Part shown: positions 11,004 through 16,053 of the stretch, piece after piece | Position numbering within the stretch: position 1 is the stretch's first letter | Layout: each line of letters opens with the position of its first letter | DNA from: Gemmatimonadaceae bacterium | Lineage (GTDB): Bacteria > Gemmatimonadota > Gemmatimonadetes > Gemmatimonadales > Gemmatimonadaceae | Length of the DNA stretch: 64,000 nucleotides | Direction of reading: 5' to 3' | NCBI GenBank assembly: GCA_022843265.1 | Contig: JALHNZ010000008.1 | Location: 38,095 to 102,094 of the forward strand | Notes under the pieces: model-generated | What the model saw: only the letters and a program-made list of their open reading frames with translations | Database searches by the model: none | Told to the model about the DNA's origin: nothing | Position numbers and translations under genes: made by a program

Positions 11004-12557
11004 CTAACTGTCGTTGCTTTTCAGTCCATAGCCTGGCACCGCAGGAAGCCCAGCCACACTCTCTGCGTACCGCGCCTCTATTTCACTGATCTCCACATCG
11101 GTGAGACGCGAGAACTCGCTGGTGCGTGCACGATTCGAGAGTCGCCCGTTGTTCTGGTAAAGAGACCGATGCAACAGGCTTACTGTGCGTTCTGGCATCT
11201 CAATAATCTCTGAAAGTGCTGTGGCGAAGGCATCGTAGGCCTTGAGATACGCGACCTCGTACGGCAGATCTGATGCAATCGTTGTGCGTACACAATGGTA
11301 CAGGAACTCGGCGTGTGCCGTGGCGTCAAAGTAGCGATACCAATCGGCCGTGTCGTTGAGCACTTCCACGTTGCCGTGGGCGGTGGGTCGCCAATCGATG
11401 CACGGCAACAGCACACGCGAATAGCTCTCCAACACTTGCTTGTAAGACGAAATCTCCCGCAGCATGACGGCACTCACGGGAAACACCACGCCGTTTGGCG
11501 CGAAGCCGGATGCAGAAAGCACGTGATGTAACAACCAACGATGCAAGCGGCCGTTGCCGTCTTCAAATGGATGCACGTACACAAATCCGAATCCCATCGA
11601 CGCCGCCGCCACGATCGCGTCCATGGCACCATGCCCCGCGCGTTCGTCAAATCGGACGATTCCATTCATCAGTGAGCGTAGATCTTCCGGCCGAGCATCG
11701 ATGTGGTCGGGCAACGGCTCCTGTGTGAGACGATCGTGCGTCCCCACAAACCCACCTTGCGTGCGAAGCCCGAGCTGTACGAAGCGATCGTCGCCGATGA
11801 CCAGCCGCTGTAGCGCTTCAAAGGCTTCGATTGACAGCACGGTTATACCCGCCGCCGCGATGGACTGAGCCCAGCGAGACGCGCGGTCACGCGCAGGTTT
11901 TTCCCCTTCAATCTGAAACGACGCTCGACTGTCGCTCAATAACATGAACGCGGCGGCGCGCGCCATGACATCGGGGTGCACCGATCCGATCACGTCCTTG
12001 ACCTGCTCGCTCAACCCACTCGCGGCGAACGCATCGAGCGCCGGTGTACGTCGAACGAGTGGGCAGAACTCGCGCGTACCGGGGATGTTGTTGCGCACGC
12101 GATGGCGCGTTGACAGTGCACCGGTAGATAGCGCGAACTGCTGACGCGGGTCTACGACGTTCACCGCGGTGACCCTGCCGGCATCGGGCAGGTCAAGCGT
12201 ATGGCCGGTGAGCCATTCATACAGGAACCAGAGTCGCCGAGTTTGTGCGCCGACCGGAATGGCGCGGATTACGTGTGCGATCTCAGTCGCCGGCACAGCT
12301 CGAAACAGCCCGTTGAGCACGGCGAGGTTCACGCCCTCCCACTTGAGTGCGAAACTGACCTGATCTGCGAGGGTATTGTCTGGTCCGTAGCGCTCGGGCA
12401 TGATGGTCCAGCCATCCCGTTCACGCGGTCTGTGGTGTCCGGCGATGGCGGCGCGCGTGGGCGGGGCGGGCACGCGAAGGCCGTACGTGGCGATGAGCCA
12501 CGCGTAGCCGGCCGGCGTCGCGCCATCGGGCGCGTTGGATGCGCGAAAAGGGCTCAC
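11004..12557 (-). CDS. Fic family protein with N-terminal inhibitory motif
   Basis: Fic core HPFEDGNGRLHR (HPFx[D/E]GNGRxxR) and upstream SFQIEG matching the [S/T]xxxE[G/N] inhibitory helix. Confidence 0.93.
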   Translation of the reverse strand: MSPFRASNAPDGATPAGYAWLIATYGLRVPAPPTRAAIAGHHRPRERDGWTIMPERYGPDNTLADQVSFALKWEGVNLAVLNGLFRAVPATEIAHVIRAIPVGAQTRRLWFLYEWLTGHTLDLPDAGRVTAVNVVDPRQQFALSTGALSTRHRVRNNIPGTREFCPLVRRTPALDAFAASGLSEQVKDVIGSVHPDVMARAAAFMLLSDSRASFQIEGEKPARDRASRWAQSIAAAGITVLSIEAFEALQRLVIGDDRFVQLGLRTQGGFVGTHDRLTQEPLPDHIDARPEDLRSLMNGIVRFDERAGHGAMDAIVAAASMGFGFVYVHPFEDGNGRLHRWLLHHVLSASGFAPNGVVFPVSAVMLREISSYKQVLESYSRVLLPCIDWRPTAHGNVEVLNDTADWYRYFDATAHAEFLYHCVRTTIASDLPYEVAYLKAYDAFATALSEIIEMPERTVSLLHRSLYQNNGRLSNRARTSEFSRLTDVEISEIEARYAESVAGLPAVPGYGLKSNDS

Positions 12558-12694
12558 TGGGCGCGAAAAACGATCATAGTGTAATTGTAATCCGCGAAAT
12601 GCTCACTCAACAATACTTCTTGCTGAGAGCTGAAAAAAGTAAGATGACACGCGAAAAACGCTCACGCAGCTAGTGTTCCGCGAAAAGTGCATTC
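12542..12694. repeat. five-copy direct repeat CGCGAAAAnnGCTCAC upstream of and overlapping the fic start
   Basis: 12542 CGCGAAAAGGGCTCAC; 12562 CGCGAAAAACGATCAT; 12593 CGCGAAATGCTCAC; 12650 CGCGAAAAACGCTCAC; 12679 CGCGAAAAGTGCATTC. Confidence 0.8.
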
Positions 12695-12759
12695 AGATGG
12701 CTGGTTGTCAATGACAGCCGGACTGCCGGCAGCGGCCTTACTCATGTACTCCCGCAAAT

Positions 12760-12800
12760 GAAACGCCCGCCCCAACGAACGTCGTTGGAGCGGGCGTTTC
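12760..12800. terminator. hairpin terminator (end of M28 peptidase gene on minus strand)
   Basis: GAAACGCCCGCCCCAACGA-ACG-TCGTTGGAGCGGGCGTTTC inverted repeat. Confidence 0.7.
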
Positions 12801-12838
12801 ACATCACGCGTCTTCTCTCGCGTTACACGTTGTCCAAC

Positions 12839-14503
12839 TCAGCGCGACGACGCGGCCGCACTCTTCGTCGGCCCGGGACACGCCGGCCACCCACGCGGCG
12901 TACCATCCGGTGCATTGCCCTGCGACACCAGATCGCGCGGCAACTTCTGCGCATCTTCCGACGCCATGTACGCCAACATCGCGATGAACGTCGCGTTGTT
13001 GCGCAGGTCTTCGGGCACAATCTTGTCGTACGTATCGCGGTTGGTGTGCCACGTGGTGTTGCTGTAATCCCAGCCGAGCGCGCCGGTGCCAATGCCAGGC
13101 GCCTTGGCACACACGAACGACGTGTGATCGGTGCCACCGGGGCCGCCGAACGGTGAGTTGCCGCCCAGTCGCACCCACTGCGTAATCTCCGACGGCATTT
13201 CGCTCATGTAGCGCGACAGGAACGCGCCCGCATGTACGAACGGGCCAGGGCTGATCGACGAAATACGACCTGTACCGTTGTCCTGATTGAACAGCATCTG
13301 CATGCCGGCAATCACTTCCGGATGCATCTCGACGTACGCTTTTGATCCGTTGAGTCCCTGTTCTTCGGAGTTCCACAAACCGATTACGATCGTGCGCTTG
13401 GGATTCGGATACACCGTCTTCAGAATGCGCATGGCTTCGATCATGGTCAGCGAACCGGTGCCGTTGTCGGTCGCGCCCGAGCCACCGGTGAACGAATCAA
13501 AGTGTCCTGACAACACCACGTATTCGTTTGGCAGTGTGCTGCCTTTGATCTCGGCGATGACATTACCGACCGGGCGTTCCGCTCCCTTTTCGGCGGTCAC
13601 CATCAGGCGAATCTTCGGCGACTGATTGTTCGCGGCCAGGCGATACAACAGGCCCATGTCTTCGCAGCCGACGTCTACCGTCGGAATCTCCTGCGCCGCC
13701 GAACCGAACACTTTGTTGATGCCCGGATACGCCGAGAAGTTGGTGGTCAGTGCGCCGAGTGCACCGGCGGCTTTGAGTTTGGCTTGAATCGCACGCGGAC
13801 CACCGCCGGCGAGCACACGCTGGCTGTACGACGCGGTGAGCGCACTCTGCTCTTGCCGCAACCGATCGCGAGACTCCGTGGTGCCGAACTCCGCCCACTG
13901 TGCGGCCATACGACACGAGAGCTGCGGTGCGTTCAGCAACACGAACTTGCCGCGCGCCGAGGGGACCCACGCGGCGAAGAGTTCTGGCGTGACGACGTTG
14001 TCGGGAATCACCACCACATTGCCTTCCACCCACTGTCCGTTGGTGCCGGGCGTCCATCCCATTGCGGTGACTTCCAGCCCACGCACGCGCGGGAACAGCA
14101 ACTCGCCGAACGCGGCGCCGTTCTTCCAGCTGTTCCACGTGCCGTAGTTCTCAATGCGCGCGGGAATGCCCCACTTGGCGTACGTGGCGAGCATGTAGGC
14201 CTGCGCGCGGTCCGCGTCGGTGGATCCCGTCAAACGGGGGCCAACGGAATCGAGCAACACTTGCGCGAACTGCATGACCTGCGAGCGCTGCATGCCTTCC
14301 TCGAAGATCTTCTGGATCATCGGGTCGGTGGCCGGCGTCGAGCGCACATACGGTGCACTGGCGCGGTCTACCGGCAGTGCCTGCGGGTTGGTGGGCGGCG
14401 GGGTGGGGCCCGGTGGGCCACCTCGGCCGCCAGGCTGCGCGAGGGCGTTGGTGCTGGTGGCACTCACGGCGAGCACGCCAATGAGGAGAACTTTCTTAAG
14501 CAT
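12839..14503 (-). CDS. secreted M28 family peptidase
   Basis: Signal peptide; LSGHFDSFTGGSGATDNGTGSLTMIEAMRIL, GLWNSEEQGLNGSKAYVEMH, GGTDHTSF. Confidence 0.9.
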   Translation of the reverse strand: MLKKVLLIGVLAVSATSTNALAQPGGRGGPPGPTPPPTNPQALPVDRASAPYVRSTPATDPMIQKIFEEGMQRSQVMQFAQVLLDSVGPRLTGSTDADRAQAYMLATYAKWGIPARIENYGTWNSWKNGAAFGELLFPRVRGLEVTAMGWTPGTNGQWVEGNVVVIPDNVVTPELFAAWVPSARGKFVLLNAPQLSCRMAAQWAEFGTTESRDRLRQEQSALTASYSQRVLAGGGPRAIQAKLKAAGALGALTTNFSAYPGINKVFGSAAQEIPTVDVGCEDMGLLYRLAANNQSPKIRLMVTAEKGAERPVGNVIAEIKGSTLPNEYVVLSGHFDSFTGGSGATDNGTGSLTMIEAMRILKTVYPNPKRTIVIGLWNSEEQGLNGSKAYVEMHPEVIAGMQMLFNQDNGTGRISSISPGPFVHAGAFLSRYMSEMPSEITQWVRLGGNSPFGGPGGTDHTSFVCAKAPGIGTGALGWDYSNTTWHTNRDTYDKIVPEDLRNNATFIAMLAYMASEDAQKLPRDLVSQGNAPDGTPRGWPACPGPTKSAAASSR

Positions 14504-14664: not shown

Positions 14665-14904
14665 GTGAAGTCCCGTTTGATCCGTATTGGCAACTCTCGC
14701 GGCGTGCGCCTGGCGAAGCCCGTGCTCGAGCAGGCCGGTCTCGAGGACGAGGTCGAGATTCGCGTGGAAGCCGGCGCTGTCATCATCACCGCGGCGGCAT
14801 CGCCCCGCGCGGGCTGGGCCGAGGCCGCCGCCAGGTATGGACCAAGTCCACTGATTGACGCACCCGTCGCGACGAAGTTCGATGACGAGGAGTGGGCGTG
14901 GTAA
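14665..14904 (+). CDS. mazE: AbrB/MazE-type antitoxin
   Basis: MKSRLIRIGNSRGVRLAKPVLEQAGLEDEVEIRVEAGAVIITAA swapped-hairpin AbrB fold. Confidence 0.9.
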   Translation: MKSRLIRIGNSRGVRLAKPVLEQAGLEDEVEIRVEAGAVIITAAASPRAGWAEAAARYGPSPLIDAPVATKFDDEEWAW

Positions 14905-15230
14905 CATTGCCCGTGAGCCGTGGAGACGTGTGGCTTATCGAACTGAACCCTACGCGCGGCCGAGAAATTCAGAAGACGCGACCTTGCGTGGTGGTCTCGC
15001 CCGACGACCTCAACGCGCATATGAACACGTTCATCGTTGCGCCGCTCACAACAGGCAGTCATCCGTATCCCTTTCGCGTTCCGCTGCGCTTCGCTGCGAA
15101 GAACGGACATGTGGTGCTCGACCAGCTTCGCACGGTCGATCGTGAGCGCCTGGTCAAGCGACTCGGCGCGCTCACTGCACCAACGCTGAGCAAAGTGCTC
15201 GCGGTGCTCGGCGAGATGTTTCGCGCGTGA
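14892..15230 (+). CDS. mazF: MazF/PemK type II toxin endoribonuclease
   Basis: SRGDVWLIELNPTRGREIQKTRPCVVVSPDDLN...VLDQLRTVDRERLVKRLG; overlaps the antitoxin. Confidence 0.92.
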   Translation: MGVVTLPVSRGDVWLIELNPTRGREIQKTRPCVVVSPDDLNAHMNTFIVAPLTTGSHPYPFRVPLRFAAKNGHVVLDQLRTVDRERLVKRLGALTAPTLSKVLAVLGEMFRA

Positions 15231-15355
15231 TAGAGCGCATCACTGGAGATCGGGATCGCGCAATGTCGCAAGCGGCAACCGATTGCGCTCTAGCGTCCTG
15301 TCCATGATCTCTCGGCAAACGACAAAGTCTGATTGCCGCGGCGACCGCGTGCCAG

Positions 15356-15384
15356 TTGCCGGGGCGTATCACGCGTGATACAAT
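15356..15384 (+). promoter_or_regulatory. promoter with 16-bp perfect palindromic operator of the Phd/VapC locus
   Basis: TTGCCG-N17-TACAAT; GTATCACGCGTGATAC (15366-15381) lies in the spacer and overlaps -10; ATG at 15392. Confidence 0.7.
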
Positions 15385-15391
15385 ACACGAT

Positions 15392-15628
15392 ATGGATAAC
15401 GTTTCTGTACGCGAGCTTCGCAATCACGGCGGTCGCGTCCTCCAGCGCGTTGCTGGAGGCGAAACGCTCACCGTGACTATGGACGGCGAACCGATTGCCG
15501 AACTGCGTCCGATCGCCGGACGAGCGCTGCCGGCGGCCACGTTGCTCAAGCGGTGGTCCAGGTTGCCGCCGGTAGACGCCAAACAGTTTCGCGCCGATAT
15601 CGATCGGGTCATGGACGCCTCCCTGTGA
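15392..15628 (+). CDS. Phd/YefM family antitoxin
   Basis: MDNVSVRELRNHGGRVLQRVAGGETLTVTMDGEPIAELRPI. Confidence 0.9.
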   Translation: MDNVSVRELRNHGGRVLQRVAGGETLTVTMDGEPIAELRPIAGRALPAATLLKRWSRLPPVDAKQFRADIDRVMDASL

Positions 15629-16053
15629 TCGACCACGCTCGGCACGTCCGAGCAATCCTCGACACAAACACCGTCATTCTGCTCAGCCAGCTAGATGACC
15701 CGACCGTGCTGCCGGACGAACCGTTGATCACGGCGATCACGTTGGCGGAGCTGACGGTGGGCCCCTTGGTGGCGACATCAGATCAGGAGCGGGCCGCCCG
15801 ACAGGCGCATCTGCAGCAGGCCGAATCAGATTTCGATGCCTTGCCGTTCGACGCCGCCGCCGCGCGCAGTTTCGGGCGTGTTGCGGCATCGCTCAGGCAA
15901 TCGGGTCGCAAAACGGCAGCCCGATCCTATGATGCGATGATTGCCGCCACCGCGTTGGCGCACGCGTTGCCGGTGTACACGTGCAATCCCGACGACTTTA
16001 GCGGCATTGATGGGCTTGAGGTGATTCCGGTGCGGTTGCCGAGCAGAGAATGA
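15625..16053 (+). CDS. vapC: PIN domain VapC-type toxin
   Basis: ILDTNTVILLSQLDDP...ITAITLAELTVGPL...SYDAMIAATALAHALPVYTCNPDDF; 4-nt GTGA overlap with antitoxin. Confidence 0.9.
   Translation: MIDHARHVRAILDTNTVILLSQLDDPTVLPDEPLITAITLAELTVGPLVATSDQERAARQAHLQQAESDFDALPFDAAAARSFGRVAASLRQSGRKTAARSYDAMIAATALAHALPVYTCNPDDFSGIDGLEVIPVRLPSRE

Follow-up and report, generated by a model that had tools for sequence, protein, structure and literature searches.

A conserved array of sites with fixed 29/30 + 20 bp geometry at PDC-S24 fic genes: a candidate autoregulatory operator

Results

The fic gene and its product

In the 64,000-nucleotide stretch of Gemmatimonadaceae DNA that was analyzed (the window), a fic gene at 11004-12557 on the minus strand encodes a protein of 517 amino acids from a GTG start codon, an identification based on Pfam (PF02661), PADLOC (PDC-S24), the sequence itself and AlphaFold2. 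PF02661 (Fic, E=4e-10) was the sole Pfam family matched by the protein. The catalytic motif, HPFEDGNGR, conformed to the consensus HPFx[D/E]GN[G/K]R, and its residues H329, P330, N335, G336, and R337 were invariant across 78 aligned sequences. An N-terminal inhibitory-helix motif, SFQIEG (residues 213-218), conformed to (S/T)xxxE(G/N), with S213 and E217 invariant. The protein is predicted to be a solitary class II Fic AMPylator.

The best profile match was PDC-S24 of PADLOC (E=1e-187), which covered the protein over its full length (residues 13-501). This profile, which in PADLOC denotes a phage-defense candidate family only, was also matched by all 78 aligned relatives and, over the full length, by eight distant relatives (E 1e-122 to 1e-183), the eight that were scanned out of nine plasmid relatives. 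No paper bearing the label PDC-S24 was found in the literature searched. The full-length AlphaFold2 model (pLDDT 93) had CbFic2 (8cil) as its top fold match, with a TM score of 0.61 by target length, and SoFic structures were also similar. Membership of the SoFic family was not indicated by NCBIfam NF046030 (16 bits vs a cut-off of 550), and the PADLOC SoFic cross-match was weak. One fic copy per genome was present in the 29 genomes examined.

The neighborhood of fic

The upstream neighbor of fic, an M28 peptidase gene (12839-14503), lies on the same minus strand. Between this gene and the fic control region, a strong 20-bp inverted repeat (12759-12801) probably acts as a terminator or insulator; it was not called by a terminator scan. 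As noted in a preliminary description of this DNA, no antitoxin gene is adjacent to fic. Across the related loci, neither a conserved neighbor nor a small ORF (like AS1 of Sofic) was found near fic. The clusters that did appear reflected synteny within single Gemmatimonadota groups and, in Rhizobium, a reading frame antisense to the array of sites described below. Relatives of the window fic were found in 280 plasmid records from many genera, including Pseudomonas, Rhizobium, Pantoea, and others, and none were found in phage records.

About 2 kb from fic, the window also contains a stretch rich in toxin-antitoxin genes (14892-16053), with a PemK/MazF-like toxin (14892-15230), a Phd/YefM-like antitoxin that scored below the Pfam cut-off (15356-15628), and a PIN-domain toxin (15553-16053).

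Repeats upstream of fic in the window

The preliminary description reported five direct-repeat copies over the start and upstream region of fic, and all five were recovered in place, in the same-strand register on the fic (minus) strand. The sequence GTGAGCNNTTTTCGCG occurred exactly at 12542-12557 and 12650-12665 and, in the pattern search used for genome-wide scans, nowhere else in the 4.6-Mb genome. The other three copies were degenerate: the copy at 12562-12577 (ATGATCGTTTTTCGCG) had two mismatches, the copy at 12679-12694 (GAATGCACTTTTCGCG) had three and was good in its right half only, and the copy at 12593 was, as described, shorter by 2 nt, which are missing from its middle. The copy nearest to fic does include the GTG start at 12557.

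A loose version of the pattern, with three mismatches allowed, was found 11 times in the window against 12.5 expected from shuffles; with no such enrichment, the pattern alone proves little. A leave-out motif, learned from other genera with the window and its 79% relative excluded, ranked copies at 12649, 12561, and 12541 as second, third, and fourth of approximately 128,000 positions. The best four-site cluster in the window scored 51.7 bits, as compared to at most 28.7 bits in twenty simulated 64-kb sequences.

Array plan in related loci

The sample consisted of 96 orthologous loci, made non-redundant, at 46-79% identity except for one at 38%; they came from Gemmatimonadota, Alphaproteobacteria, Acidobacteriota, Myxococcota, and other groups. 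Their upstream DNA was searched for motifs by expectation maximization with a fixed number of sites per locus; searches without a per-locus limit collapsed into A/T tracts. Arrays with spacings of 20 and 29/30 bp were found in most of the 96 loci. In the clade above 45% identity, a typical array had about six sites, arranged as two triplets, each with the structure A-(29/30 bp)-B-(20 bp)-C. In several Gemmatimonadota loci, the common motif picked out few sites or none.

Three main motif types were distinguished. C1, the type of the window, reads GTGA-N7-TCRC, and each C1 site was an imperfect palindrome when both strands were modeled; typical C1 triplets lie near -132/-103/-83 and -51/-22/-2 relative to the window GTG. 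C2 reads AtCGtTTTTCA[TC]G, and in C2 loci spacings of 20 and 29/30 alternate. C66 reads TtcGTGAAggTTTTC. A fourth motif, TTTTCGAC, was found in a 46% relative (L114), whose array upstream of fic has its own letters and a geometry of 30-20, 27, 30-20. Outside the GTGA clade, sites of several clades were non-palindromic. The GTGA..TCAC form of C1 sites suggested a CRP/FNR-type site, which was rejected on site form: the halves of CRP/FNR-type sites are separated by N6, those of C1 by N7. The direct repeats of the preliminary description were real, but it had missed that the sites are palindromic and that their triplets keep a fixed 29/30 + 20 geometry; this geometry is a more striking feature than the repeats as first noted.

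Start-to-start distances between the five copies in the window (29, 59, 29, and 20) fit, by eye, the family plan of 29-20, a gap and 29-20, with one site degenerate near 12630-12644. In the upstream triplet, all on the minus strand, site A (12680-12694, GAATGCACTTTTCGC), with its conserved right half, lies 29 bp from site B, in agreement with the spacing in relatives. Site B (12651-12665, GTGAGCGTTTTTCGC) is an exact match (16.6 bits), and the putative third site is, on weak evidence, a T-tract (12630-12644, TTTTTTCAG) about 21 bp from B, of which the right half only is recognizable and which was assigned by eye from the family geometry. The downstream triplet, on the same strand, starts with site D (12594-12606, GTGAGCATTTCGC; 4.7-6.7 bits), which carries the 2-nt internal deletion and whose left half lies 29 bp from site E (12563-12577, ATGATCGTTTTTCGC). 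Site E is located 20 bp upstream of site F (12543-12557, GTGAGCCCTTTTCGC), an exact match that contains the GTG start and codons 1-5; with the leave-out motif, these sites scored 15.6 and 12.8 bits, respectively.

Motif-free scan of the spacing

The geometry was also scored independently of any motif, by the likeness of three 15-bp stretches for each pair of distances (15-45, 15-45) in 225 nt around the start codon. The combination (29 or 30, 20) ranked first of 961 in each of seven groups; in L114, a single locus, it came second. Six of the seven groups were C1 loci of Alphaproteobacteria, other C1 loci, C2, and C66, as well as alphaproteobacterial plasmid relatives at 44-48% identity and Gemmatimonadota paralogues at 38-40%. 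The seventh group comprised relatives at about 30% identity, mostly from gammaproteobacterial plasmids. Its z score was 3.68, as compared to less than 0.8 in controls. When distant relatives were taken singly, 15 of 20 were at or above the 99th percentile for this spacing and five were below. Neither Markov shuffles nor segments taken from these loci at random or for low GC showed the geometry, and none of 23 SoFic-type genes from the same phylum reached the 99th percentile. Motif letters differ across clades, and the spacing is kept from about 80% down to about 30% protein identity.

Conservation and specificity for fic

The preliminary description had tied the repeats to fic, and they do belong to it: they were enriched upstream of orthologues and not elsewhere. 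In 13 well-preserved C1 loci, pairwise identity was 72-78% within sites vs 35-49% in the surrounding sequence. A motif trained on Alphaproteobacteria only found 44 same-strand sites in 19 Gemmatimonadota loci, where 0.7 were expected; the opposite strand of these loci gave eight and control coding DNA none. In other groups, this motif found 28 sites in nine loci (0.36 expected). As the loci are related, these counts are not independent.

Codon usage was affected where sites extend into the gene. Phe codons that overlap C1 sites were TTT in 39 of 48 cases, vs 315 of 1090 elsewhere in C1 genes (P=3e-13), and corresponding numbers for C2 were 76 of 81 vs 365 of 1107 (P=9e-29). Ser codons that overlap C2 sites were TCA in 38 of 71 cases vs 88 of 744. 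Choice of the first codons under the sites thus bends to the DNA motif.

Genomes were searched with a strict two-site pattern with 20-bp spacing, and with the reversed pattern as control. In 18 alphaproteobacterial genomes, all 13 matches were at fic by coordinates, and in 300 Gemmatimonadota genomes three matches were found, one of them at fic; the control gave none in either set. The two non-fic matches (L120 and L121, near position 1500) occurred in two Gemmatimonadota genomes of one genus, between a yyaL-like thioredoxin gene and a membrane-protein gene. Sister genomes hold fic at that place. Because both neighbor genes flank fic in the sister genomes, these site pairs are probably relics after loss of fic.

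Candidate binding protein

The preliminary description suggested Fic itself as a possible regulator, and Fic is indeed the best candidate: no conserved partner was found, each genome examined has one fic, and motif type tracks the Fic clade. On the Fic tree, motif type changed three times and host class 21 times. The protein leader, from which the clade labels on this tree were taken, overlaps the array, and its columns were excluded from the tree; as an independent check, motif type from non-coding DNA alone matched the Fic clade in 85 of 89 loci. Both main motif types occur within Alphaproteobacteria. By this mapping, motif letters follow the Fic clade and not the host.

A DNA-binding domain was not established in the Fic protein, for which Pfam returned Fic only. 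Its C-terminal segment (residues 456-501) is predicted to form three helices, which matched no HTH or other known family. The N-terminal domain belongs to no Pfam family and yielded no significant match in sequence and fold searches; its best fold matches, Rv2827c and Streptococcus agalactiae AbiEi antitoxins, were below significance (E 0.096-1.5). In our own comparison of secondary structure with AbiEi as described (PMC7319586), the likeness apparently concerns the C-terminal part of AbiEi and not its winged helix. Clade-specific residues, considered as a locator of the DNA-reading domain, were spread over the whole protein and not decisive, and no clear DNA-reading helix emerged when the predicted domains were compared in consensus and charge from clade to clade.

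Both the lack of an established DNA-binding domain in Fic and the relic site pairs without an adjacent fic in two genomes would be consistent with a distinct regulator that acts in trans as repressor or activator, has its gene elsewhere in the genome, and is dedicated to fic or to a few defense genes. Such a regulator is nevertheless unlikely, as no other paired sites occurred in the genomes searched and no neighbor gene is conserved. In addition, it sits poorly with a motif type that tracks the Fic clade and with the presence of both main types within Alphaproteobacteria, and the plasmid-borne relatives, spread over many genera, would need the same regulator in each host.

Promoter elements and action at the RNA level

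By eye, two promoter-like elements could be recognized in well-preserved relatives: a -35-like TTCACA within site A, in its right half, and a -10-like element within site B, in its left half. The A-B spacing of 29/30 bp is approximately that of a promoter. No sigma-70 promoter was called by a scan of the window itself. The downstream triplet covers the 5' UTR, the start codon, and the first codons.

This downstream triplet would be transcribed, and a short GUGA/UCRC hairpin could form at each site of the GTGA clade. Control at the RNA level, which the preliminary description had offered as an option, might then work through hairpins in the leader, through mRNA sites that bind a protein, or through an RNA antitoxin as in type III systems. 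However, the leader folded no better than shuffles (z -1.18), Rfam gave no match, the upstream triplet lies over the by-eye promoter of the well-preserved relatives, and sites of several clades are non-palindromic. With sites of about 15 bp rather than long tandem units, the locus does not have the make-up of a type III (RNA) toxin-antitoxin system either. Action at the RNA level is therefore very unlikely.

Discussion

The array is probably a dedicated operator for negative autoregulation of fic, bound most likely by Fic itself. In the proposed mechanism, a dimeric or oligomeric DNA-binding factor, for which Fic is the likeliest candidate, would read sites of about 15 bp that, at distances of 29/30 and 20 bp, would be separated by near-whole helical turns. 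The promoter would hold one triplet, and members of the window's clade would have another that spans the 5' UTR, the start codon, and the first codons. Such a layout would suit a repressor that might act as a roadblock or by looping. As sites A and B of the well-preserved relatives overlap the -35-like and -10-like elements, respectively, their occupancy would block RNA polymerase, and a potentially toxic AMPylator could be held at a low level without a separate antitoxin gene.

One of the closest known parallels is CccR of Yersinia pseudotuberculosis, a Fic toxin of class II for which autorepression near -35/-10 has been demonstrated (PMC9755527). CccR has a C-terminal HTH, and its operator is one inverted-repeat pair, AGATAATCAT-N26-ATGATAATCT (PMC9755527). 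The window Fic resembles CccR in being a single-polypeptide class II Fic with an operator, in this case putative, at the promoter. In contrast to CccR, the window family has three to six sites in the same orientation, in 29/30+20 triplets that extend into the coding sequence, instead of one inverted-repeat pair with an N26 gap. Protein architecture also differs: the window Fic has 517 amino acids and an N-terminal domain. We infer that the array is bound by Fic, that its binding causes repression, and that the gene has a toxic or defensive role; if this holds, the present case would work like CccR, operator and protein architecture aside.

Several repeats over a promoter are also known from AbiEi and Rv2827c, type IV antitoxins of phage-abortive systems that repress their own promoters via two to four repeats; AbiEi contains a winged helix (PMC7319586). 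The window Fic shares with them the multiple repeats and, as its best, weak N-terminal fold match, a likeness in structure. AbiEi, however, is encoded by a separate antitoxin gene, whereas in the window protein the similar portion forms one polypeptide with the Fic enzyme, and a winged helix was not recognized. The window locus thus differs from the type IV AbiEi arrangement, in which a winged helix plus antitoxin domain is encoded by a separate gene next to AbiEii. SoFic/Sofic are Fic toxins with reported anti-phage activity, and Sofic of Escherichia coli has a small antitoxin gene downstream (PMC12249575), which was not found at loci of the window family.

CbFic2 of Coxiella burnetii, also a class II Fic and the top fold match of the window model, changes its activity upon DNA binding (PMC10628234). 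Since the window Fic is of the same class and has an inhibitory helix, DNA of the array might mainly control the enzyme, either its monomer/dimer state or the balance of AMPylation and deAMPylation. This role as the main function is highly improbable: an array over promoter and start codon is placed as a transcriptional operator would be, and the CbFic2 work used random DNA (PMC10628234). CbFic2 moreover has a DUF4172 domain and a C-terminal DeoR-type HTH, and no operator array has been reported for it. Enzyme control and a transcriptional operator are mutually compatible. The lack of enrichment of the loose pattern in the window would favor chance or composition, in the form of helical A-tract periodicity in the A/T-rich upstream DNA of related sequences, but this reading is refuted to the point of being negligible by the absence of the geometry from random and low-GC segments, Markov shuffles, and SoFic-type upstream regions, by the transfer of the motif across groups, and by the codon bias.

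The putative operator architecture of PDC-S24 fic genes is conserved and, in the literature searched, which included few subscription journals, undescribed. As a speculative extension of autoregulation by Fic, it is conceivable, though doubtful, that PDC-S24 Fic proteins are one-gene toxin-antitoxin modules. A fused AbiEi-like domain would then assemble the protein on a triplet operator of fixed geometry and drifting letters, and release, for example by phage DNA or infection, would both derepress the gene and activate the enzyme. How solitary Fic toxins and defense candidates are kept silent without an antitoxin gene is a question that the conserved operator makes testable. A constant geometry, with letters that change along with the protein, offers a natural experiment in the co-evolution of protein and operator. 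The array is also a signature that does not depend on annotation and might reveal PDC-S24 loci, including relics after gene loss.

A minor feature of the fic leader is a seven-codon frame (ATG ATC GTT TTT CGC GCC CAG TGA, 12554-12577), which was not seen in the 79% relative (L009). It starts in site E and its stop codon overlaps the fic GTG start (GTGA), an overlap with which translational coupling to fic would be possible.
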